Source: Acidimicrobiales bacterium (GTDB taxonomy: Bacteria > Actinomycetota > Acidimicrobiia > Acidimicrobiales > GCA-2861595). From it: a DNA stretch of 64,000 nt. Positions 15,452-30,646 of the stretch are shown here, piece by piece (position 1 is the first letter of the stretch; each line of letters begins with the position of its first letter). The notes under the pieces were generated by a model, which saw only the letters and a list, made by a program, of their open reading frames with translations, made no database searches and had not been told where the DNA came from. The stretch covers positions 58,513-122,512 of the forward strand of contig JAUJNQ010000001.1 of NCBI GenBank assembly GCA_030448025.1, in the 5' to 3' direction. Made by a program: the position numbers and the translations under genes.

Positions 15452-16327
15452 CTACCAGCGCCGCTGGTAGCGGTTCCGGACGAAGATGGCCAACGCGTTC
15501 ATGGAGATCAGGATGGCGAGCAGTACCACGATAGCGGCGGCGGCCAGGACCCGGAACTCCTCCTGAGGGCGGGATATCCAGTTGAAGATCTGGATGGGCA
15601 GGACGGTGAAGGGGCTGTTCAGCCCCGTCGGGTTGAAGGTGAGGTAGGTGAGCCCCCCGAGCAGTATGAGGGGAGCGGCCTCGCCGATGGCGCGGGACAG
15701 GGCGAGGATGGAACCCGTCGCTATTCCCGGGACCGCACTGGGCAGCACTTGACGCCTTATCGTCTGCCACTGCGTGGCGCCCAGGGCGAAGGCGCCGAGC
15801 CGGATCGAGTTGGGCACGGCCCGGATGGCTTCCCGGGAGGTGATGATGACGATCGGCAGCACGAGCAGGGCCAAGGTCAAGGAACCGGCCAGGACCACGA
15901 AGCCCAGGTTGAGGGGACCGCGTGACAAGAACCCCAGGCCGAGGATCCCGTAGACGATGGCGGGAACGGCAGCAAGGTTCTGGATGTTCACCTCGATGAG
16001 GCGGTTGTACCAGCGCGTGGTGTCGGCGTACTCCTCCAGGTAAACGGCGGCACCGACGCCGACGGGAACCACCACGAGCCCACAGATGCCCACCACCCAG
16101 ATCGTCCCGAAGATGGCCGAGCGGGCACCGGCTCCGCCGGGGCTGCTGGAGGGAAAGTTCCTCAAGAGATCCAGATTCAGCCGTGGAAGACCCTCGTTGA
16201 CCACCTGCACGAGCAGGACCACCAGGCACAGGAGGCCAAAGCCCAGGCAGCTGAGCAGGAGCGCTTGGAAGGCTCGGCCCTGGAGCCGGTCGGCGGTGGA
16301 CCGTCGTTCCATGGTCGGTGCCGTCAC
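15452..16327 (-). CDS. pstA: Phosphate ABC transporter permease PstA
   Basis: Multi-TM permease with RAIGEAAPLILLGG; position between pstC and pstB. Confidence 0.94.
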   Translation of the reverse strand: MTAPTMERRSTADRLQGRAFQALLLSCLGFGLLCLVVLLVQVVNEGLPRLNLDLLRNFPSSSPGGAGARSAIFGTIWVVGICGLVVVPVGVGAAVYLEEYADTTRWYNRLIEVNIQNLAAVPAIVYGILGLGFLSRGPLNLGFVVLAGSLTLALLVLPIVIITSREAIRAVPNSIRLGAFALGATQWQTIRRQVLPSAVPGIATGSILALSRAIGEAAPLILLGGLTYLTFNPTGLNSPFTVLPIQIFNWISRPQEEFRVLAAAAIVVLLAILISMNALAIFVRNRYQRRW

Positions 16328-17283
16328 TCGTACACCTCGCGAAAGCGGCGAACCAGGCGGATGCTCAGGAAGTTCAGCAGGAAGGTGACTGCGAACAAGG
16401 TGGCCCCCACGGCGAAGATGGTCTTGTACCCGGTGCTGCCCGTCGGTTGGTCGCCTATCCCCGCGGCGGCGATGAAGGCGGTCATCGTCTGCATTCCCTC
16501 GGCGGGGTCGAACGAGAGGTTGGGGGTACCCCCGGCCGCGATGAGCACGATCATGGTCTCGCCCATGGCTCGGGAGACGGCCAGCACGAAGGCGGCCACG
16601 ATCCCCGACAAGGCTGCCGGCACGACAACCCTGGTCGACACCTGCATCTTGTTGCTTCCGAGCCCGTAGGCCCCCTGCCGCAGCGACTGCGGTACCGCGG
16701 TCATGGCGTCCTCCGACAAGGAGGCCACCGTGGGAAGGATCATGACTCCCATCACCAAGCCGGCGGACAGGGCGTTGAACACTCCTGGGGGGTCGCCGGG
16801 CAGGAACCAGAGGTCCTGCAGCAAGGGCGTCACGAAGGTGAGGGCGAAGAAGCCATACACGACTGTGGGAATGCCGGCCAGGATCTCGAGCAACGGCTTC
16901 AGGATGGCCCGTGAACGGCTCCGGGCGTACTCGCTCAGGTAGATGGCGGCACCAAGGCCGAGGGGTACACAGACGGCCAGCGCTATGACCGTCGTCACCA
17001 AGGTCGCCGTGACCAGCGGGAGCACACCGAACTTGGCGTCGTCAAAGAGCGGTGCCCACTCCCGGCTGGTGAAGAACTCCACGACGCTTACCTCGGAGAA
17101 GAACTCGACGGTGGGCACTGCCAGCGACGCGACGATGGCAACGGTGGTCCCCACGGAGAGGAAACCGCACAGGGCCAGTAGAGCCTTGACGGCCCTGTCG
17201 CCGTATCTGGGCCTCGTGGCTCGAAGGCTCGTTCGGGGGCGGAGACTGACACTCGCCGAAGCAGCGAGCTGGGGGGCGGTCAC
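16324..17283 (-). CDS. pstC: Phosphate ABC transporter permease PstC
   Basis: Multi-TM permease with SRAMGETMIVLIAAGG; overlaps pstA. Confidence 0.94.
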   Translation of the reverse strand: MTAPQLAASASVSLRPRTSLRATRPRYGDRAVKALLALCGFLSVGTTVAIVASLAVPTVEFFSEVSVVEFFTSREWAPLFDDAKFGVLPLVTATLVTTVIALAVCVPLGLGAAIYLSEYARSRSRAILKPLLEILAGIPTVVYGFFALTFVTPLLQDLWFLPGDPPGVFNALSAGLVMGVMILPTVASLSEDAMTAVPQSLRQGAYGLGSNKMQVSTRVVVPAALSGIVAAFVLAVSRAMGETMIVLIAAGGTPNLSFDPAEGMQTMTAFIAAAGIGDQPTGSTGYKTIFAVGATLFAVTFLLNFLSIRLVRRFREVYE

Positions 17284-17291
17284 CGGTCCTG

Positions 17292-18266
17292 TCAGCCCGT
17301 GACGCCGGTGAGGCGGTCGACCTTCTGTTTGGCCTCGGTCAGCTGCTGCTGTGTCAAAGAGACGAACTTGGCCTGGTCAGTGATTGCCTTGTTCTGGTTG
17401 ATGTAGAACTCGACGAACGCCTTGACCTCAGGCCTCTTCAGGGCAGCGGCGGTGGGGTAGATGAAGAGCGGCCGGCCCAAAGGCTTGTACGTCCCGTCCT
17501 GCACCGTCTGCTCGGTTGGCGCCACGCAGCCCTTGCCGCCGTTGATCTCGAGGCCCTTCACCTTGCTCTGGTTCTCATTGAGATAAGACAGCCCGAAGTA
17601 GCCCATGGCCCCCTTGCTGCCGCTGACGCCTTTGACCGTGACGTTGTCGTCCTCGGTGGCGCTGTAGTCCGTCCGGCTGGCGCCCTCCTTGCCGTTGATG
17701 GCCTCGGTGAAGTAGTCGAAGGTCCCCGAATCAGTACCGGCACCGAAGAGGGTCAACTTCTCGTTGGGAAAGCTGGGATCGACCTGGTTCCAGCTGGAGA
17801 CCTTGGAACCGGGCTCCCAGATCTTCTTCATCTGCTCGACGGTGAGGCACTTGGCCCACGTGTTCTGCGGGTTCACCACCACCGACAGGCCGTCGTTGGC
17901 CACCGAGACTTCCTCGTAGGTGATCCCCTTGGCCTTGCAGGCGGCGATCTCCTTCTCCTTTATTGGCCGGGACGCGTCACTGATGTCGGTTTCGCCGTTG
18001 CAGAACTTCTCGAACCCGCCACCGGTGCCCGACGTGCCCACCGTCACCTGGACGCCGGACTGCTCCTTTCGGAACTGCTCGGCCGCTGCCTCGCTCAACG
18101 GCGCGACCGTGCTCGACCCGTCGATGCGAATGACGCCACTCAGCTTCTCGCCGCCCCCGGCGCCGGAGCCTGTGCTCTCATCGTCTCCGCCACAAGCGGC
18201 GGCCACGATGGCCAACGCCACAGCGACAGCCGCCAGTCGAAAAGCCCTTGGTCCGCGTGCATGCAT
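17292..18266 (-). CDS. pstS: Phosphate-binding lipoprotein PstS
   Basis: Lipoprotein-type signal (VALAIVAAACGGDDES), IRIDGSSTVAPLSEAAAEQF, TSGTGGGFEKFCNGETDISDASR. Confidence 0.95.
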   Translation of the reverse strand: MHARGPRAFRLAAVAVALAIVAAACGGDDESTGSGAGGGEKLSGVIRIDGSSTVAPLSEAAAEQFRKEQSGVQVTVGTSGTGGGFEKFCNGETDISDASRPIKEKEIAACKAKGITYEEVSVANDGLSVVVNPQNTWAKCLTVEQMKKIWEPGSKVSSWNQVDPSFPNEKLTLFGAGTDSGTFDYFTEAINGKEGASRTDYSATEDDNVTVKGVSGSKGAMGYFGLSYLNENQSKVKGLEINGGKGCVAPTEQTVQDGTYKPLGRPLFIYPTAAALKRPEVKAFVEFYINQNKAITDQAKFVSLTQQQLTEAKQKVDRLTGVTG

Positions 18267-18352
18267 CACCAGTAACCTCCTGAGGGTCGGTCGGCGCAAG
18301 TCCTCGATCGCCAAACCCGACGCTAAGTGAGAGGCCTGACGGTTTCACCAAG

Positions 18353-18385
18353 TGCAGGTGAACGACTGGTGAACAAGCCCTGAAC
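18353..18385 (-). promoter_or_regulatory. PHO-box-like triple direct repeat upstream of pstS
   Basis: Minus strand reads GTTCAGGGCTT GTTCACCAGTC GTTCACCTGCA: three contiguous 11-bp units. Confidence 0.7.
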
Positions 18386-18550
18386 CTTCCAGGCACGATC
18401 CGCACAGCATGGCGGTACGCGACGGAGCTCGGCCGCCCCATCGAGTGACCTTGCGGCCTCCCGGTGGTACGAACCGAGCTCCGATGACGTTGTACACCTC
18501 TCGCACTGGGAACGCAAGGGGAATTTCCAGAAGACGGCGGATTCGTCCCC

Positions 18551-18901
18551 TTACGGCGCCAGGGCCCCCCGGAGCAACGCCATGCGCTCGGACACCACGG
18601 CGTACCAGACCCACCGGCCGCGCTTGTCACCGGCGATGAGACCGGCCTCGGTGAGCACCTTCAGATGGTGGCTCACGGTGGGTTGGCTGCGCCCGATCGG
18701 CACCACCAGCTCGCAGGCGCACACCTCCCCGGCCGGGGCGCTGGCCAGCAGGCTGAGCAGCCGCAGCCGGACCGGATCTGCCAGGGCAGCGAAGGCTCGA
18801 GCCAGGTCGCCCGCCTCCGTCTCAGTGAGGGGAGCGGCCAGCACGCTCGGGCAGCACGCCACCTCCTGCACCGTCTTCGCCAAGTGGGGGCCTCTCCTCA
18901 T
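18551..18901 (-). CDS. arsR: ArsR/SmtB-family metalloregulator
   Basis: LARAFAALADPVRLRLLSLLAS, CACELV, SQPTVSHHLKVLTEAGLI; divergent from arsI/cadI-like gene. Confidence 0.9.
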   Translation of the reverse strand: MRRGPHLAKTVQEVACCPSVLAAPLTETEAGDLARAFAALADPVRLRLLSLLASAPAGEVCACELVVPIGRSQPTVSHHLKVLTEAGLIAGDKRGRWVWYAVVSERMALLRGALAP

Positions 18902-18905
18902 CGTA

Positions 18906-18934
18906 TTGACAGACTTCGATACAACTGGTAAACA
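18906..18934 (+). promoter_or_regulatory. Possible promoter for the arsI-MIP-arsC operon
   Basis: TTGACA, 17-bp spacer, TAAACA in the arsR/arsI intergenic region. Confidence 0.4.
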
Positions 18935-18971
18935 ACTACGTGTCGACCCACGTCAATCTACAGGAGGCACC

Positions 18972-19394
18972 ATGTCCCGTGTGCAGCTGGCCCTCAACGT
19001 CAGCGACCTCGACAAGTCCGTGGAGTTCTACTCGAAGCTGTTCGACGTCGAACCGGCAAAGCGACGTCCCGGCTACGCCAACTTCGCTGTGGACGACCCC
19101 CCGCTCAAGCTGGTGCTCTTGGAGGGTGCGGGAGGCGGGGGCAGGCTCAACCACCTCGGCGTGGAGGTGGCCTCGTCCGAGGCGGTGGCGGCCGCCGAGC
19201 GACGGCTGTCGGGCGAGGGCCTGCCGACCGCCACCGAGGACCAGGTGGCCTGTTGCTACGCCTTGCAGGATAAGGTCTGGGTGGACGATCCCGATGGCGC
19301 CCCGTGGGAGGTGTACACGGTCCTGGCCGACGTGGAGGCCCCGACTGGCCGCTTGCGCGGGGTGTGTGGCCCAGAGGCCTGCTCGATTCGGTGA
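18972..19394 (+). CDS. arsI: ArsI/CadI-family glyoxalase-fold protein (candidate C-As lyase or metal-inducible protein)
   Basis: VQLALNVSDLDKSVEFYSKLF, vicinal cysteines in VACCYALQDKVWVDDPDGAPWEVYTVLAD; beside arsR, MIP and arsC. Confidence 0.85.
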   Translation: MSRVQLALNVSDLDKSVEFYSKLFDVEPAKRRPGYANFAVDDPPLKLVLLEGAGGGGRLNHLGVEVASSEAVAAAERRLSGEGLPTATEDQVACCYALQDKVWVDDPDGAPWEVYTVLADVEAPTGRLRGVCGPEACSIR

Positions 19395-20128
19395 AGCGTG
19401 AGGCCGCGACCCTTGCGCGCAGGGCTGTCGCCGAGTTCGTGGGCACCGCCCTGCTGCTGATGGCGGTGGTGGGATCGGGGATCGGCGCCGCGCGACTGTC
19501 ACCCGACATCGGGCTCCAGTTGCTGGTGAACGCCCTGGTGTCCGGGGCGGTCCTGACGGCCATCATCCTTGCCGTGGGCCCGGTGTCGGGTGCCCACCTC
19601 AACCCGGTCGTCACTCTGGCCGACCGGGTCTTCGGTGGCCTCGCCAACCGCGAGGCGGCCACCTACGTGGCCGCCCAGGTAACCGGAGGCGCCGCCGGCA
19701 CCGTTACCGCCAACCTCATGTTCTCCCTCCCGGCCGTGGTGCTGTCCACCAGGAGCCGCAGCTCGGGTGGGCTCTGGTTGGGCGAGGTCGCCGCCACCTT
19801 CGGCCTCGTCCTCGTGGTATTTGGCGTGGTGCGCTCCGGCCGGCGAACAGCGGCGCCCTTCGCCGTCGGCGCTTACGTGTTCGCTGCGGTGCTCTTCACG
19901 TCCTCCACCAGCTTCGCCAACCCGGCGGTGACGCTGGCTCGCATGCTCAGCGACACGTTCGCCGGCATCGCGCCCGGGTCGGTGGCGTCCTTCGTCCTCG
20001 CCCAACTAGCCGGTGGCGCCTTCGCCGTGGCTGCCGTCGCCACCCTGTACCCCGCCATGGCCGAGGTCGCCGTTGACGTGGTCGTGCCACACGAGGACGT
20101 GAAGGACGTGGAGTGCGTGAAGGCATGA
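19391..20128 (+). CDS. MIP/aquaglyceroporin-family channel (AqpS-like candidate)
   Basis: Multi-TM; MIP boxes GAHLNPVVT and SFANPAVTLAR; GTGA overlap with arsI. Confidence 0.85.
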   Translation: MKREAATLARRAVAEFVGTALLLMAVVGSGIGAARLSPDIGLQLLVNALVSGAVLTAIILAVGPVSGAHLNPVVTLADRVFGGLANREAATYVAAQVTGGAAGTVTANLMFSLPAVVLSTRSRSSGGLWLGEVAATFGLVLVVFGVVRSGRRTAAPFAVGAYVFAAVLFTSSTSFANPAVTLARMLSDTFAGIAPGSVASFVLAQLAGGAFAVAAVATLYPAMAEVAVDVVVPHEDVKDVECVKA

Positions 20129-20752
20129 GCGCCGATTCTCCCGAGTTCCGTCAGCCACTCGCAGACGTGTGCCGCCGCCTCGGCGAGGAGTTCGCCGGTG
20201 TCTTCTCGGCCGAGACCGTCGAGCGCTACTCGGTGACTCGCTCGAGCGTTGGCGCGATGCCCGGATCACCGCCTATCTCCCGCTCATCATCGAACGCTTC
20301 TCCAGGGAGCGCCTACGCGCCGTGGCCAAGGCAGAAGGGACCATCGTGTCCAACGTCCCCGAGGTGCTGTTCGTCTGCGTGTACAACGCCGGCCGCTCGC
20401 AGATGGCAGCCGCTCTGCTCGACCACCGCGCCCAGGGTCGGGTGCACGTCCGCTCGGCGGGCAGCGCTCCCGCCGACGAGATCAACCCCGCCGTCGCCGC
20501 CGTGATGGGCGATTGGGCATCGACCTGTCAGAGGAGTTCCCCAAGCCGCTGACCGATGAAGTGGTACGGGCCGCCGACGTGGTGATCACCATGGGCTGCG
20601 GCGACGCCTGCCCTATCTACCCCGGCAAGCGCTACCTGGACTGGGAGCTGGACGACCCCGCCGGCAAGTCCACCGATGATGTAGTACCGGTCCGGGACGA
20701 GATCGACCGACGGGTGCGCGAACTGCTGGTCGAGCTCGTACCCGAGGGCTGA
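20125..20752 (+). CDS. arsC: Arsenate reductase ArsC, LMW-PTP type with N-terminal helical domain; two frame disruptions
   Basis: CX5R loop VCVYNAGRSQMAA, RSAGSAPADEINPAV, VITMGCGDACPIYPGKRYLDWELDDP spread over three frames. Confidence 0.8.
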
Positions 20753-23044: not shown

Positions 23045-23944
23045 GTGACTGTAGGAGTGATGTTTCCCGGGCAGGGGGCGCAACGGGCAGGGCTGGGGCT
23101 GGTGTGGCGAGACCACCCGGCCTGGTCCGTGGTCGAGCGCGCCGAGGCCGCCCTGGACCGGTCCTTCGCCCACCTCCTCCTCGATCCCGACGCCTCGCTC
23201 GACCGCACCGAGGATGCCCAGTTGTCGGTGCTCCTCACCTCTCTGATGGCCTGGGAGACCGTGGCCCCCACCCTGGCCTCGGTGGTGGGCTTCGCCGGCC
23301 ACTCGCTCGGCCAGGTGACGGCCCTCATCGCCGCCGGCGCTCTGGGATTCGAGGACGGCATCCGGCTGGCCGCTCGCCGTGCCCATCACACCCAGGACGC
23401 TGCCGAACGCCGGCCGGGCGAGATGATGGTGCTGCTCGGGGCCGCGGTCGACCAGGCGCTCGAGCTCTGTGAGAGCGGTGACGGCCAGTGCTGGCTGGCC
23501 AACGACAACGCCCCGGGCCAGGTCGTGGTGGCCGGAACGCCCGCCGGGGTGGCCGACGCCGAGGAGCGAGCCGGGTCCTTCGGCGTTCGCCGGGCCACCC
23601 GGCTGCGGGTGGGCGGGGCCTTCCACACCCCGCTCATGGCCGACGCCTCCGCCGCCTTCGCCGACGATCTGCGGACCGTTCCCCTGTCGCAGCTCTCGGC
23701 ACCGGTGGTCTCCAACGGTGATGCCCGTGCCTACGACGACGGCGATGGCTGGCGCCAACGCCTGGAGGACCACCTCGTGCGGCCCGTCCGCTGGCGAGAG
23801 TCGGTGGAGACGCTGGTGAGCATGGGCGCCACCCATCTGGCCGAGGTCGGCCCCGGCAGCATCCTGGCCGGCCTGGCGCGCCGCATCGTCCCCGGCGTGC
23901 CAGTGCAGGGCAGCGAGCTACCCCTTCAGGAGGTGCCGGCATGA
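23045..23944 (+). CDS. fabD: Malonyl-CoA:ACP transacylase
   Basis: GVMFPGQGAQRAGLG, active-site GHSLGQVTALIAAG, start of FAS-II operon. Confidence 0.92.
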   Translation: MTVGVMFPGQGAQRAGLGLVWRDHPAWSVVERAEAALDRSFAHLLLDPDASLDRTEDAQLSVLLTSLMAWETVAPTLASVVGFAGHSLGQVTALIAAGALGFEDGIRLAARRAHHTQDAAERRPGEMMVLLGAAVDQALELCESGDGQCWLANDNAPGQVVVAGTPAGVADAEERAGSFGVRRATRLRVGGAFHTPLMADASAAFADDLRTVPLSQLSAPVVSNGDARAYDDGDGWRQRLEDHLVRPVRWRESVETLVSMGATHLAEVGPGSILAGLARRIVPGVPVQGSELPLQEVPA

Positions 23945-24237
23945 CCATGACGTCGACCAAGCGCGTGCGCGGTGAGGACTTGGAGGTGTCGGAGCGGGTC
24001 ATCCTCGCCCCGGCCGTGGGCGTGTTCCAGCCCGAGGCCGTCGAGGCGGCAACCGTCCACACCGGCGGGGGCGAGGACAAGTCGGTGAACGAGGGCGAGG
24101 TCGTGGGCGTGGTCGAGTCCCGAGGCCAGGCCATTCCGGTCCGCAGCGCCTTCACCGGGTTCCTCATGGGCATGCTGGTCCATCCCGGTGAGCGGGTGCG
24201 CGAGGGCCAACCGGTCGCCTGGCTGCGGGTCCTCTAG
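23941..24237 (+). CDS. Biotinyl/lipoyl-like domain protein without an obvious acceptor lysine
   Basis: ILAPAVGVFQPE...NEGEVVGVVESRGQAIPVRSAFTGFLMGMLVHPGERVREGQPVAWLRVL resembles a BCCP hammerhead, but the EAMKM segment aligns to ESRGQ. Confidence 0.6.
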   Translation: MTMTSTKRVRGEDLEVSERVILAPAVGVFQPEAVEAATVHTGGGEDKSVNEGEVVGVVESRGQAIPVRSAFTGFLMGMLVHPGERVREGQPVAWLRVL

Positions 24238-24250
24238 ACCGGGTGCGCTG

Positions 24251-25252
24251 ATGGGCCTCACCATCACCGGCCTGGGCACGGCCATTCCCGAGCAGCGGCT
24301 CACCAACGCCGATCTCGAGCGGATGGTGGACACCAGCGACGCCTGGATCGTGGAGCGCACCGGCATCCGGGAGCGGCGGGTCGCGGCCCCCGACGAGACC
24401 TCGGCCACCCTCGGCACCGATGCCGCCGCCGCCGCCCTCAAAGACGCCGGGCTCACGCCGGGCGACATCGGCCTGCTGGTGGTGGCCACCACCACCCCGG
24501 TCCAGCTCTTTCCGTCCACCGCCGTGCGCATCCAAGACGCCCTCGGGCTGCGTTGCGGGGCGTTCGACGTCATGGCCGCCTGCTCCGGCTTCGTGTACGG
24601 CCTGGTGACGGCGGCAGGGATGATGACGGCCGAGGCCGGCCTGGCGCCGGGGCGGGGGTCAGCCTCCTCGGAGGGGCGAGCACCGGTGGAGCGTCGACCC
24701 TCCCTCGTGGTGGGCACCGAGACCCTCACTCGGGTCGTGGACCCCACCGATCGCTCCACCCGCATCCTCTTCGGCGACGGTGCCGGGGCCGCGGTGGTGG
24801 ACCACTCGGTGGAACCCGACTGGGGGCTCCTGTCATGGGACCTGGGCGCCGACGGCTCGCTGGTCTCGTTGCTCGAGGTGCCGCCCGGAGAACGATGGTT
24901 GCGCATGGAGGGCAAGGAGGTGTTCCGCCGGGCCGTCCGGGTGGTGGTGGAGTCGTCCTCCGTCGCCCTCGAGAAGGCCGGCATGAAGCCCGACGACGTG
25001 GACCTGTTCGTCCCTCACCAGGCCAACGTCCGCATCATCGACGCCGTCTGCAGCCGCATCGGGATCCCCTCCGAGCGCACGGTGGTCAACCTCGACCGCT
25101 ACGGGAACACGTCGGCGGCGTCCATCCCCCTGGCTTTGGCCGAGGCCGCCGAGGACGGCAGGCTCACCGGTGGGGAGGTGGTGCTCATCTCCGGATTCGG
25201 TGCCGGGATGACGTGGGCCAGCGCCGTGATGCGCTGGGAACCGCGCCCATGA
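24251..25252 (+). CDS. fabH: 3-oxoacyl-ACP synthase III
   Basis: Cys motif AACSGFVYGL, VPHQANVRI, RYGNTSAASIPLAL. Confidence 0.94.
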   Translation: MGLTITGLGTAIPEQRLTNADLERMVDTSDAWIVERTGIRERRVAAPDETSATLGTDAAAAALKDAGLTPGDIGLLVVATTTPVQLFPSTAVRIQDALGLRCGAFDVMAACSGFVYGLVTAAGMMTAEAGLAPGRGSASSEGRAPVERRPSLVVGTETLTRVVDPTDRSTRILFGDGAGAAVVDHSVEPDWGLLSWDLGADGSLVSLLEVPPGERWLRMEGKEVFRRAVRVVVESSSVALEKAGMKPDDVDLFVPHQANVRIIDAVCSRIGIPSERTVVNLDRYGNTSAASIPLALAEAAEDGRLTGGEVVLISGFGAGMTWASAVMRWEPRP

Positions 25253-26016
25253 GCGAGCAGGCGGGCGACCAGGCGAGCGACCCCCCAGGTAATGGCCGGG
25301 TCGCCCTCGTCACGGGCGGGTCAGGAGGCATCGGTCGAGCCACCGCTGTGGCCCTCGGCCAGGGCGGCCATCGCGTCGCCGTCGGCTACCGGCGGGACCG
25401 CGAGAGCGCCGAGAAGACGGCCGCCGAGATCGACGGCCTGGCCGTGGAGCTGGACGTGAGCGATCCCGACGCAGTGGACGCCGGCTTCACCCGCGTGGAG
25501 GAGGCCCTGGGCCCGGTGGAGATCCTGGTGAACAACGCCGGCATCACCGCCGACGGGCTCATCCTGCGGATGACCGACGACCAGTGGCGCGACGTGTTGA
25601 GCACCAACCTCGACGGCGCCTTCCGCTCCACCCGGCGGGCCGGCGCCACCATGCTCCGGCGCCGCTTCGGGCGCATCGTCAACGTGGGATCCGTGGTGGG
25701 CTCCACGGGCGCTCCCGGGCAGGCCAACTACGCAGCGGCCAAGGCCGGCCTCATCGGGCTGACCCGGTCGGTGGCCCGCGAGCTAGCATCACGGGGAGTC
25801 ACCTGCAACCTGGTGGCGCCCGGGCCCATCGCCACGGCCATGACCGATGCCCTTTCCGAGAAGCGACTGGGCGAGATCGTCGGAGTCGTGCCCTTTGGGC
25901 GCATGGGGACCGCGGAGGAGGTCGCCGAGGTGATCGCCTTCTTGTGCTCGGACGCCGCCTCCTACGTCACCGGTGCCGTCGTCCCGGTGGACGGTGGCAT
26001 GAGCATGGGCCACTGA
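25249..26016 (+). CDS. fabG: 3-oxoacyl-ACP reductase
   Basis: SDR: TGGSGGIGRATA, NNAGITADGL, NYAAAKAGLIGLTR; overlaps fabH. Confidence 0.94.
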   Translation: MSEQAGDQASDPPGNGRVALVTGGSGGIGRATAVALGQGGHRVAVGYRRDRESAEKTAAEIDGLAVELDVSDPDAVDAGFTRVEEALGPVEILVNNAGITADGLILRMTDDQWRDVLSTNLDGAFRSTRRAGATMLRRRFGRIVNVGSVVGSTGAPGQANYAAAKAGLIGLTRSVARELASRGVTCNLVAPGPIATAMTDALSEKRLGEIVGVVPFGRMGTAEEVAEVIAFLCSDAASYVTGAVVPVDGGMSMGH

Positions 26017-26076
26017 AGCGCTGCAACCAGAACGCTGCACCCAATGGCGATAACGATCGAGAACAGGAGCGAATCG

Positions 26077-26328
26077 ATGGACAGAGAGCGGGTCATGGTC
26101 ACGATGCGAGAGGTCGCCCCCGAGGTCCTGGGCGTGGAGCCGGACGTCGTGGTCGAGGAGGCCAACTTCAAGGACGACCTCGATGCCGACAGCCTGGACC
26201 TGGTGGAGCTCGTTATGGGCCTCGAGGAGCGCCTCGACGTCGTCATCCCCGAGGACGAGCTCTCCGGGATCAAGACCGTGGGCCAGGCCGTCGACCTCGT
26301 CGTGGCCAAGCTGGCCGTGAAGACCTGA
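26077..26328 (+). CDS. acpP: Acyl carrier protein
   Basis: [30 protein letters not shown] phosphopantetheine site DSL. Confidence 0.93.
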
Positions 26329-26335
26329 CGGTCCG

Positions 26336-27583
26336 ATGAAGGAAACCGACCAGCGAGGCCGCCACCGGGTGGCCGTCACCGGTCTGGGCGTCAAGTCGCC
26401 CGCCGGCAACGACCTCGCAGAGTTCTGGTCCACGTTGCTGGCCGCTCGTCCGGTCGCCGCGCCCATCTCCCGGTTCGACGCCTCGTACCTTCCCGTCGCC
26501 TTCGCCTGCGAGGTCCACGACTTCGACCCGTCGGACTACTTCGGGCCCAAGGAGTTGCGCCGCACCGACCGGGTGGTCCAACTCGGTTTCGCCGCCGCCA
26601 CCGACGCCCTCCACCACGCCGGCGACCTTGGCGCCGACCCCAACCGCTGCGGGGTGGTGGTGGGCGTGGGGATCGGGGGGCTCTGGACCCAGGAGGAGGA
26701 GGAGAAGGTCCTCTACGAGAAGGGCCCGACTCGGGTGAACCCGTTCCTCATACCCATGATGATGCCCAACGCCACGGCGGGCACCATCGCCATGCGCCAC
26801 GGGTGGAAGGGCCCCAACCTGTGCGTGGCCACGGCCTGTGCCGCCGGCACCAACGCCATCGGCGAGGCCGCCCGGCTGGTGCGAGAGGGCTCGGCCGAGG
26901 TGGTGCTGGCCGGCGGGGCCGAGGCCGTGCTCACGCCCATCGCCATCTCCGCCTTCGCCCGCATGGGAGCCCTGAGCACCCGCTCCGACGACCCCGCCGG
27001 AGCCTCGCGCCCCTTCGACCCCGAACGGGACGGGTTCGTGATGGGGGAGGGCGCCGCCTTCCTGGTACTCGAGCGCTGGGACCGGGCCGAGGCCCGCGGC
27101 GCCGAGATCCACGGCGAGGTGCTCGGCTACGGGCGCAACGCCGACGCCTACCACATCACCGCTCCAGACCCGGACGGAAGCGGGGCGGTGGCGTGCATGG
27201 AGGCGGCGCTGGAGGATGCCGGGCTCGGGCCGGCCGACGTGGGCCACGTCAACGCCCACGGCACGTCCACGCCCCTCAACGACTCCATGGAAGCCGAGGC
27301 CATCGTCAAGGTCTTCGGCGGCTCACCGCCCCCGGTCACCTCCACCAAGGGAGTCACCGGCCACATGATCGGCGCCGCCGGAGCGGTGGAGGCTGTGGCC
27401 TCGGTCCTGGCTGCTCGGGACGAGATGGCCCCTCCCACCGCCAACCACGAGCGCACTGACCCCGGCGTGACGTTGGACGTGATCGCCGGCGAGCCCCGCC
27501 GGGTCAGTGGCCCGGTGGTGTCCAACTCCTTCGGCTTCGGTGGCCACAACGCCACCCTGGTGCTGGCCGCGGCCCAGCTCTGA
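26336..27583 (+). CDS. fabF: 3-oxoacyl-ACP synthase II
   Basis: VATACAAGTNAIGEAARL, NAHGTSTPLND, KGVTGHMIGAAGAVE, NSFGFGGHNATLV. Confidence 0.95.
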   Translation: MKETDQRGRHRVAVTGLGVKSPAGNDLAEFWSTLLAARPVAAPISRFDASYLPVAFACEVHDFDPSDYFGPKELRRTDRVVQLGFAAATDALHHAGDLGADPNRCGVVVGVGIGGLWTQEEEEKVLYEKGPTRVNPFLIPMMMPNATAGTIAMRHGWKGPNLCVATACAAGTNAIGEAARLVREGSAEVVLAGGAEAVLTPIAISAFARMGALSTRSDDPAGASRPFDPERDGFVMGEGAAFLVLERWDRAEARGAEIHGEVLGYGRNADAYHITAPDPDGSGAVACMEAALEDAGLGPADVGHVNAHGTSTPLNDSMEAEAIVKVFGGSPPPVTSTKGVTGHMIGAAGAVEAVASVLAARDEMAPPTANHERTDPGVTLDVIAGEPRRVSGPVVSNSFGFGGHNATLVLAAAQL

Positions 27584-27679: not shown

Positions 27680-28975
27680 GTGGCCATGTTCCGCCTCGAG
27701 GGCGGTGAGCATCGGGGCGCCCTGGGCCCGGCCGAAGGACTCACGGTGGAGCGCGTGTTGGAGATGGCCACCGAGCTGGGCGTGCCCGTGCTGGGCGTGG
27801 TCGCCACTTCGGGCGCCGACGTCGGCCACGGGGTTGCCTCCCTGCATGCCTGGGGCCGCGTGGCCAGGGCCCTCAGCGCCGCGTCCGGGGTGGTGCCGGT
27901 GGCCATGGTGGTCACCGGGCCGTGCGTGTCGGGGCCGGCCCTGCTGCTGGGCGTGGCCGACATCGTCGTCATGACCAGTGAGGCCTTCGCCTACGTGAGC
28001 GGCCCCCGGGCCGTGCAGGGGTTCACCGCCAAGGTGGTGGGCAACCGCGAGCTCGGGGGCGCCGACGTGCATGCGCTGCGCACCGGACTGGCGTGGGCCG
28101 TGGAGAACGACGAGGAGGCCGCCATAGACGCCGCTCTGCACGCCTTGTCCTACCTCCCCCCGAACAACCACGAGGAGCCGCCCGTCTCCCTGTCGGCCGA
28201 TCCCGTTGGGCGCGACTCGGAGCTGGCGGCGTCGGCCGTGCCCGCCTCGCCCACCGCCTCCTACGACGTGCGGGTGGTGATCGAGGACGTGGTGGACGCC
28301 GAGTCCTTCTTTGAGGTCCGAAGCCTCCACGCCCCCAACGTGGTCACGGGTTTGGCGACCGTCGGAGGCCAGCCCGTGGGCGTCATCGCCAACCAGCCCT
28401 CGCAGACGGCCGGCGCCATCGACGTCGACGGGGCCAGCAAGGCGGCCCGCCTGGTGCAGCTCTGCGATGCCTTCAACGTGGCCCTGCTCACCTTCGTGGA
28501 CACGCCCGGGTTCCAGCCCGGCAAGGACATCGAGTGGCAGGGGATGATCCGCCACGGCGCAGAGCTGGTCCACGCCTACGCCGCGGCCACCGTGCCCCGG
28601 GTGAGCGTGATCCTGCGCAAGGCTTATGGGGGTGCCTACATCGTGATGGACTCCAAGGGCATGGGCAACGACACGTGCCTGGCCTGGCCGTCGGCGGAGG
28701 TGGCGGTGATGGGTGCCCAGGGCGCGGTCAACATCCTCCACGGCCGCCGCCTGGCCGGGGTGGAGGACGCAGCGGCGAGGGACCAGGAGCGAAAGACCCT
28801 CGAGACCGACTACGCCGAGCGCTACTGCACGCCGGCGATCGCCGCCGAGCGGGGGTTCGTGGACGAGGTGATCGAGCCGGCGGACACCCGCCGGGCCGTG
28901 GCCGGCGCCCTGGCGGCCCTGCGCACCAAGCGGGAGCGCCTCACCCATCGCCGCCACGCCAACACGCCGCTGTGA
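27680..28975 (+). CDS. Acyl-CoA carboxyltransferase (PccB/AccD-like), short N-terminus
   Basis: ClpP/crotonase-type carboxyltransferase motifs GPCVSGPALLLGVAD, VTSEAFAYVSGP, RKAYGGAYIVMDSKGMGND, AWPSAEVAVMGAQGAVNIL; lacks the usual ~80-100 aa N-terminus. Confidence 0.85.
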   Translation: MAMFRLEGGEHRGALGPAEGLTVERVLEMATELGVPVLGVVATSGADVGHGVASLHAWGRVARALSAASGVVPVAMVVTGPCVSGPALLLGVADIVVMTSEAFAYVSGPRAVQGFTAKVVGNRELGGADVHALRTGLAWAVENDEEAAIDAALHALSYLPPNNHEEPPVSLSADPVGRDSELAASAVPASPTASYDVRVVIEDVVDAESFFEVRSLHAPNVVTGLATVGGQPVGVIANQPSQTAGAIDVDGASKAARLVQLCDAFNVALLTFVDTPGFQPGKDIEWQGMIRHGAELVHAYAAATVPRVSVILRKAYGGAYIVMDSKGMGNDTCLAWPSAEVAVMGAQGAVNILHGRRLAGVEDAAARDQERKTLETDYAERYCTPAIAAERGFVDEVIEPADTRRAVAGALAALRTKRERLTHRRHANTPL

Positions 28976-29071: not shown

Positions 29072-29093
29072 AGGGTGTGCAAGGGTGAGGGAC

Positions 29094-29861
29094 ATGCTGC
29101 TCGAAGGCAAGAAGCTGGTCGTCACCGGGGTGCTCACCGACGCCTCCATCGCCTTCTCCGTGGCCCGCCTGGCCCAGGAGCACGGCGCCGAGCTGGTCCT
29201 CACGTCCTTCGGCCGGCCCATGAGCCTCACCACCCGTTCCGCTCGCCGCCTCCCGGACCCGCCCGACGTGCTCGAGCTGGACGTGTCCAATCCCGAGCAC
29301 TTCGCGGCGTTGACCGACGAGCTGGAGCGTCGTTGGGGACGGGTGGACGGTGTCCTCCACGCCATCGGCTTTGCTCCCGAGGTCTGCCTCGGCGGCGACA
29401 TCCTGCGGGCGGAGTGGGAGGACGTCGCCACCGCTCTTCAAGTGTCCGCCTACTCACTCAAGGCCTTGGCCCAGGCCGCCCTCCCGCTCATGAGCGACGG
29501 TGGTGGCTCGGTGGTGGCTCTCGACTTCGACGCTCGCCAGGCCTGGCCGCAGTACGACTGGATGGGCGTGGCCAAGGCCGCGCTGGAGTCCACGGCCCGG
29601 TACCTGGCTCGAGACCTGGGTCCGCTCGGCGTGCGGGTCAACTTGGTATGCGCCGGTCCCCTCCGCACGGTGGCCGCCAAGTCCATACCGGGGTTCAACA
29701 GCTTCGAGGACGCCTGGAAGAACCGGGCGCCTCTCGGGTGGGACGTGGCCGACGCCGAGCCCGTGGCCCGGGCGTGCGTGGCCCTCTTCTCGGACCTCTT
29801 CCCGGCCACCACGGGCGAGATGCTCCACGTCGACGGCGGCTACCACGCCGTGGGCGCCTGA
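29094..29861 (+). CDS. fabI: Enoyl-ACP reductase, FabI/InhA-like
   Basis: KKLVVTGVLTDASIAFSVA, AIGFAPE, YDWMGVAKAALESTARYLARDLGP. Confidence 0.92.
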   Translation: MLLEGKKLVVTGVLTDASIAFSVARLAQEHGAELVLTSFGRPMSLTTRSARRLPDPPDVLELDVSNPEHFAALTDELERRWGRVDGVLHAIGFAPEVCLGGDILRAEWEDVATALQVSAYSLKALAQAALPLMSDGGGSVVALDFDARQAWPQYDWMGVAKAALESTARYLARDLGPLGVRVNLVCAGPLRTVAAKSIPGFNSFEDAWKNRAPLGWDVADAEPVARACVALFSDLFPATTGEMLHVDGGYHAVGA

Positions 29862-29881: not shown

Positions 29882-30646
29882 ATGAGCAGCCTGCGAGACC
29901 ACTTGGTGGACTCGCGCTTGGCCGGGTCGGTGGCCACCACGCCGGGGAACACGGTGGCCAACTGCGAGAATCTCGTGGCCGGCAAGCCGGACTACACCTT
30001 CGGCCTTTCCGACTGGGAGAGCGTGGACGTAGCCGAGGTGCGGGCCGTGGTGGCCAAGGTCTTCGGTGACGCCGCCGTGGACGCCGACCCCGACGGGCCG
30101 GGTTGGATCGACCCCGACGCCACGCTGGTCGCCATTGAAGGCCATCGGGCCAAGCTCGCCGACCACGCCCGCGCTCGCTCCGTGGTGCTGCTGGCCACCG
30201 GCCACCCCACCGGTCTGCTGCCTCACTACATGGCGCTGGGCCGGGCCCTCCTGGACGCGGGCTGCGAGCTCCTCACGCCGCTCGACAACTCCTGGCTCGT
30301 GACCGGACCCGACCGCCGGGGTATCCGCTTCCTCGGCCCGGTGGGCTGCGCCTGGACGGGCGGCGACTTGATCCACACCCACCGCTCCCGGTACATGGAG
30401 GCCATGCTCGACGCCCTGGACGGTGAGGGCCGGCGACCGGACCTGGTGCTCGGGGACCACGGCATGGCCGGTGGCGCCATCGAGCGCGGCATCGACACGC
30501 TGGCCATCGCCGACGTCAACGACCCGGCGCTCTTCCTGGCCCAGACGAGGGGCCGCACCCACTCGGTCATGCCCATCGACGACAACCTGGCGCCCCGCCT
30601 CTTCGAACCCGTCACCGCCGCCGTGCTCGACGGGTTGGGTGCCTGA
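29882..30646 (+). CDS. Conserved actinobacterial protein (phosphatase-annotated family as recalled; function unverified)
   Basis: ATGHPTGLLPHYMALGRALLDAGCELL, LVLGDHGMAGGAIERGIDTLAIADVNDPALF. Confidence 0.6.
   Translation: MSSLRDHLVDSRLAGSVATTPGNTVANCENLVAGKPDYTFGLSDWESVDVAEVRAVVAKVFGDAAVDADPDGPGWIDPDATLVAIEGHRAKLADHARARSVVLLATGHPTGLLPHYMALGRALLDAGCELLTPLDNSWLVTGPDRRGIRFLGPVGCAWTGGDLIHTHRSRYMEAMLDALDGEGRRPDLVLGDHGMAGGAIERGIDTLAIADVNDPALFLAQTRGRTHSVMPIDDNLAPRLFEPVTAAVLDGLGA

Follow-up and report, generated by a model that had tools for sequence, protein, structure and literature searches.

What does a small protein with a predicted biotinyl-type fold but no biotin-acceptor lysine do in an operon for type II fatty acid synthesis? 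This question is raised by a gene, here called X, in a 64,000-nucleotide stretch of Acidimicrobiales DNA (the window, meaning the whole stretch that was analyzed). X encodes 98 amino acids at positions 23941-24237 of the + strand and is flanked by fabD and fabH within an operon that reads fabD-X-fabH-fabG-acpP-fabF-carboxyltransferase-fabI. The other genes of the operon, also on the + strand, encode FabD (malonyl-CoA:ACP transacylase, 23045-23944; Pfam Acyl_transf_1, E 2.7e-22; TIGR00128 fabD, E 2.5e-64), FabH (beta-ketoacyl-ACP synthase III, 24251-25252; ACP_syn_III_C, E 9.4e-40; TIGR00747, E 2.3e-103), FabG (3-ketoacyl-ACP reductase, 25249-26016; an open reading frame in a position homologous to that in related loci), acyl carrier protein (26044-26328; PP-binding, E 1.5e-11), FabF (beta-ketoacyl-ACP synthase II, 26336-27583; TIGR03150, E 2.6e-157), a PccB/AccD6-like carboxyltransferase that is short at its N terminus (27680-28975; Carboxyl_trans, E 1.5e-118, profile positions 71-492), and a FabI/InhA-type enoyl-ACP reductase (29085-29861; NF005908, E 3.7e-123). 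FabD is an essential textbook enzyme, and the gene at 23045-23944 is the only match to PF00698 in this genome, where it is present in a single copy.

The start codon of X overlaps the stop codon of fabD in the sequence ATGA (23941-23944, + strand), and an AGGAGG motif lies just 5' of the X ATG. Judging from this arrangement, translation of X is likely coupled to that of FabD. Beyond the operon, a gene for a PF15698 "Phosphatase" family protein (29894-30646) directly follows fabI. The upstream region at 16324-20752 encodes PstS/PstC-like phosphate transport proteins, an ArsR-like regulator, a glyoxalase-like protein, an MIP-type channel, and an arsenate-reductase-like protein; from its translations, it looks like a phosphate/arsenic cluster.

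The original prediction described X as biotinyl-like and proposed a structural comparison with biotin carboxyl carrier proteins (BCCPs). The Pfam Biotin_lipoyl model (PF00364) matches residues 21-93 of X with an E value of 1.5e-4 and 21.9 bits, narrowly below the curated cut-off of 22.1 bits, and X falls far below the cut-offs of all NCBIfam BCCP models. When a profile of the X family was compared with BCCPs in the PDB, matches were obtained at E values of about 1e-6. An AF2 model computed from the window X and 25 relatives has a pLDDT of 81.5, with 63 residues at or above 90, and contains seven strands with a hairpin turn at residues 61-62. The top Foldseek match of this model in the PDB is the biotinyl domain of Escherichia coli AccB (1bdo; E 4.9e-5, TM 0.65/0.79), followed mostly by other BCCPs, including archaeal ones. 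The predicted structure is therefore that of a barrel-sandwich hybrid of the biotinyl type, and the suspected relationship to BCCPs holds in the modeled fold and in the sequence profiles, beyond what chance would give.

X shares with AccB-type BCCPs an SPxxGxF start, a similar C-terminal half, and a loop that corresponds in position to the AccB "thumb" (P31-E51, 24031-24093, + strand). The length of this loop differs widely among relatives of X, and residues 35-44 within it have pLDDT values below 50 in the model. Unlike AccB-type BCCPs, X has no biotinyl-lysine, has a shortened hairpin in many family members, is linked to FabD, and carries conserved elements of its own (ER, RSPF, GER, and WLR). 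Lipoyl domains and the glycine cleavage H protein belong to the same fold superfamily, but their profile match to X is weaker than that of AccB, and X lacks the acceptor lysine; by hhalign, the X profile fits AccB-type BCCPs better than either the BC-BCCP or the lipoyl domain encoded in the same genome.

Within residues 55-75 of X (VGVVESRGQAIPVRSAFTGFL, the stretch quoted in the original prediction), the predicted hairpin tip is Arg61-Gly62 (24121-24126, + strand), at the place where BCCPs have the Met-Lys of the biotin site. In the alignment with E. coli AccB, Gly62 of X occupies the column of Lys122, the acceptor lysine of the E/AMKM motif of BCCPs. The only lysines in X are Lys7, in the N-terminal tail, and Lys47, which the model assigns to a short strand of the region corresponding to the thumb; both are outside the hairpin, and neither column is kept as lysine among 84 aligned relatives. 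The claim that the hairpin lacks a lysine is thus borne out, and an alternative lysine at the tip is ruled out by the lysine positions in X and by the family alignment, in which none of 130 distinct copies has a lysine in the Lys122 column. This count leaves out one locus (L157), the sole Lys/MKM exception in the set, which encodes a genuine AccB that is not close to any FabD. No biotinylatable ancestor adjoining FabD was found among the collected copies of X.

The host genome encodes one canonical carrier of the biotinylated type elsewhere, a BC-BCCP with a VLEAMKM motif (C10, L002), as well as a lipoyl E2 (L001) and two proteins of the BPL/LplA/LipB family, one of them ∼2 kb from the BC-BCCP. 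The role of normal biotin carrier in this cell is therefore filled by a protein other than X. X might still be viewed as a working BCCP that is modified at another residue, or as a standard one hidden by misalignment, since it combines a BCCP fold with a place in a fab operon that contains a carboxyltransferase. We consider this hardly credible, given that Lys7 and Lys47 are neither at the hairpin nor conserved, that lysine is missing from the Lys122 column throughout the 130 copies, and that a canonical BC-BCCP is already present. As judged from its residues, X is predicted to be non-biotinylated and unable to carry carboxy-biotin, in agreement with the proposal that it is not a standard BCCP.

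Loss of the essential lysine could also mean that X is a decaying, functionless remnant of accB, and the upper end of its pN/pS range is in keeping with this (0.11-0.41 between close relatives, compared with 0.07-0.21 for FabH in the same genome pairs). However, X is under purifying selection and has residues that vary little or not at all within the order; it is also present across the phylum and has repeatedly changed its state of fusion to FabD (see below), so decay is very improbable. Among the 84 aligned copies, information content is 1.91 bits in the hairpin columns, 2.60 in the rest, and 3.16 in the core, and 39 of these copies have a hairpin shortened by 4 residues. Seven residues are conserved in X and not in BCCPs (Glu18, Arg19, Arg68, Phe71, Arg85, Trp94, and Arg96). 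All of them lie away from the tip, and together they may form a surface.

Of the 298 genomes sampled from the order, 246 contain X according to a single-sequence search. A profile search extended the family to class- and phylum-level relatives, its weakest matches being ordinary BCCPs. The survey of fab operons suggested by the original prediction yielded 131 distinct copies of X: FabD is encoded directly upstream in 122 and FabH downstream in 118, and many of the copies without the expected neighbors are on short contigs or in unusual loci. Of the 131 copies, 61 form in-frame fusions with FabD, the fusion point lying directly after the natural FabD C terminus; long open frames in these GC-rich loci were counted as fusions only when FabD was in the same frame. 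The fused state clusters in a quick FabD tree calculated without bootstrap, which implies 6 changes of state, at least 3 of them forced by well-supported branches. Switching between a neighboring gene and a fused domain is a classical sign that two proteins act together.

FabH was considered as the key partner of X and was rejected, because X remains beside FabD at loci lacking a neighboring FabH (L149, L152, and L195). A FabD match is missing in only 4 of the 246 X-positive genomes. Conversely, among the 52 genomes that scored negative for X, 13 do encode a FabD; these belong to families f22 and f58. The other X-negative genomes mostly have no FabD match or have weak, partial, or type-I-like ones (in frames of 1000-2400 amino acids); a few are ambiguous, and one (G011) has a divergent X that is found by the profile (L153). 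FabDs that resemble those of Streptomyces, as judged from sequence, also occur without X (L184 and L181). Because the FabDs of f22, f58, and the Streptomyces-like group lack X, we conclude that X is accessory, not essential, to FabD. Members of families f19, f33, and f9 (genomes G019, G072, G140, G033, and G008) have no separate FAS-II FabD; in some of them, acyltransferase domains are found only in frames of ∼2400 amino acids, which suggests type I synthases.

The conserved loss of the lysine and the frequent fusion to FabD make it probable that X has been reused for docking or as a structural module and does not serve as a cofactor carrier. We therefore favor, with a probability of roughly 70%, the reading that X is an AccB-derived, non-biotinylated accessory module or subunit of FabD that acts through protein contact. 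According to this proposal, an AccB-type biotinyl domain would have lost its acceptor lysine long ago and would have been retained as a non-catalytic accessory of FabD, as a C-terminal domain in many lineages and as a small, translationally coupled subunit in others, including the one in the window. An X that cannot carry a carboxyl group and is held by FabD would have to act by contact: it would pack on FabD, or bind it where the two are separate proteins, and would expose a conserved face distant from the tip that once held biotin. In doing so, it may stabilize FabD or dock it to some other participant in malonyl-ACP supply, such as acyl carrier protein or acetyl-CoA carboxylase (ACC). The scaffold, adaptor, or regulator role put forward in the original prediction fits these data, but its favored partners, acyl carrier protein or the carboxyltransferase at 27680-28975, are not the best supported ones; adjacency and fusion favor FabD, and X persists where no carboxyltransferase lies within ∼10 kb.

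A narrower version of the FabD-module reading gives X only a structural role: as a C-terminal domain, it would stabilize FabD or determine the oligomeric state of the enzyme, and no third protein would be involved. The position of the fusion point at the natural FabD C terminus and the strict association of X with FabD speak for this version. On the other hand, many FabDs manage without X, and the residues specific to X could belong to a surface for a partner just as well as to a structural core, so we regard a purely structural role as possible but rather unlikely. The confidence assigned to this version overlaps with that of the general reading, as does that of the ACC-docking version discussed next, both being sub-readings of the same FabD module.

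The carboxyltransferase of the operon is itself unusual. It aligns to PccB only from about residue 100-108, the homologous N-terminal ∼100 residues being missing, and the PccB N-domain GG motif (PCAGGAVY) reads CVSGPALLLG. Both features are largely kept in its relatives, and a full-length paralogue is encoded at G000:C7. The operon carboxyltransferase is present in the clade in which X is a separate gene and absent within ∼10 kb of most of the fused-clade clusters examined; in the fused-clade genomes that were checked, an enzyme of this divergent type is encoded at another locus. When five candidates were scored per genome, the FabD-positive, X-negative families f22 and f58 were found to be without a carboxyltransferase of the window type. 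By the same procedure, families f20, f31, f39, and f61 have X and no clear window-type carboxyltransferase (profile E ∼1e-155 versus 1e-165 or better). In outgroup genomes with X, the best carboxyltransferase matches reach only about 42-46%. An obligate partnership of X with the carboxyltransferase was rejected as not strict, X being kept without a nearby or clear window-type enzyme.

In a distance-covariation test on 16 taxa of the separate-gene clade, the distances of X follow those of the carboxyltransferase (partial r 0.53; naive Mantel p < 0.001) more closely than those of FabD (partial r 0.12), whereas the carboxyltransferase covaries about equally with FabH (partial r 0.52). These mirror-tree tests, with 16-20 taxa and naive permutation, are exploratory, and the link of X to the carboxyltransferase is suggestive at most.

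These observations bear on a comparison with the plant BADC proteins, which are non-catalytic and compete with BCCP for access to biotin carboxylase (BC) (PMC7712654). BADCs set the precedent for a BCCP that lacks biotin in fatty acid synthesis. X resembles them as a BCCP-like domain without acceptor lysine that is predicted to be non-catalytic and free of biotin; the likeness is one of domain type, and BADCs are subunits of the plastid ACC, whereas X is fused to or adjoins FabD. If X behaved in this way, it would dock like a BCCP on biotin carboxylase or carboxyltransferase (CT), and would either tether FabD to the source of malonyl-CoA or restrain ACC. The lysine-less fold with its thumb-position loop, the covariation of X with the operon carboxyltransferase, the divergent enzyme in the fused-clade genomes checked, and the lack of that enzyme type in f22 and f58 are all consistent with such docking. 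The four families that have X and no clear window-type enzyme, and the equally strong covariation of the carboxyltransferase with FabH, are not what it predicts. In addition, the hairpin tip of a biotinyl domain is the part that enters the BC and CT active sites, and in X the tip is the shortened, less conserved part. This weak conservation argues against insertion into those sites, and we accordingly set docking on ACC low, as an unlikely version of the FabD module.

By the same estimate, it is doubtful, though conceivable, that FabD in much of the Actinomycetota bears a BCCP domain that has been retired from its carrier role and now anchors the enzyme to ACC, such that malonyl groups would pass from ACC to acyl carrier protein in one assembly or the FabD-bound pseudo-BCCP would regulate ACC. 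Should this unlikely arrangement prove true, bacteria would have their own equivalent of plant BADC, incorporated in the enzyme that acts next in the pathway. More generally, a conserved extra domain on FabD that resembles the carrier of the enzyme one step earlier, yet is unable to carry biotin, points to a physical connection or a site of control between ACC and type II fatty acid synthesis, and the natural FabD-X fusions make such a link directly testable.

The epsilon subunit of acyl-CoA carboxylases (AccE/PccE/TfAcCCE) is, like X, a small actinobacterial protein that takes part in malonyl-CoA supply without being catalytic. X differs from it in its predicted all-beta biotinyl fold and its position beside fabD, and Pfam and NCBIfam searches with X gave no match to an epsilon-subunit family. 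Openly licensed papers in PMC yielded no description of a FabD-associated biotinyl domain or of such a fusion. What is known is the biotinyl/BCCP-type fold; what appears to be new is a pseudo-BCCP domain on an enzyme where none was expected. For annotation, these results warn against calling a BCCP from the presence of a biotin/lipoyl domain in a fab operon.

Proteins with an X-like domain were also seen at four loci where no FabD was detected (L147, L150, L144, and L143). Those of L147 and L150 lie near genes that resemble pyrimidine biosynthesis genes.
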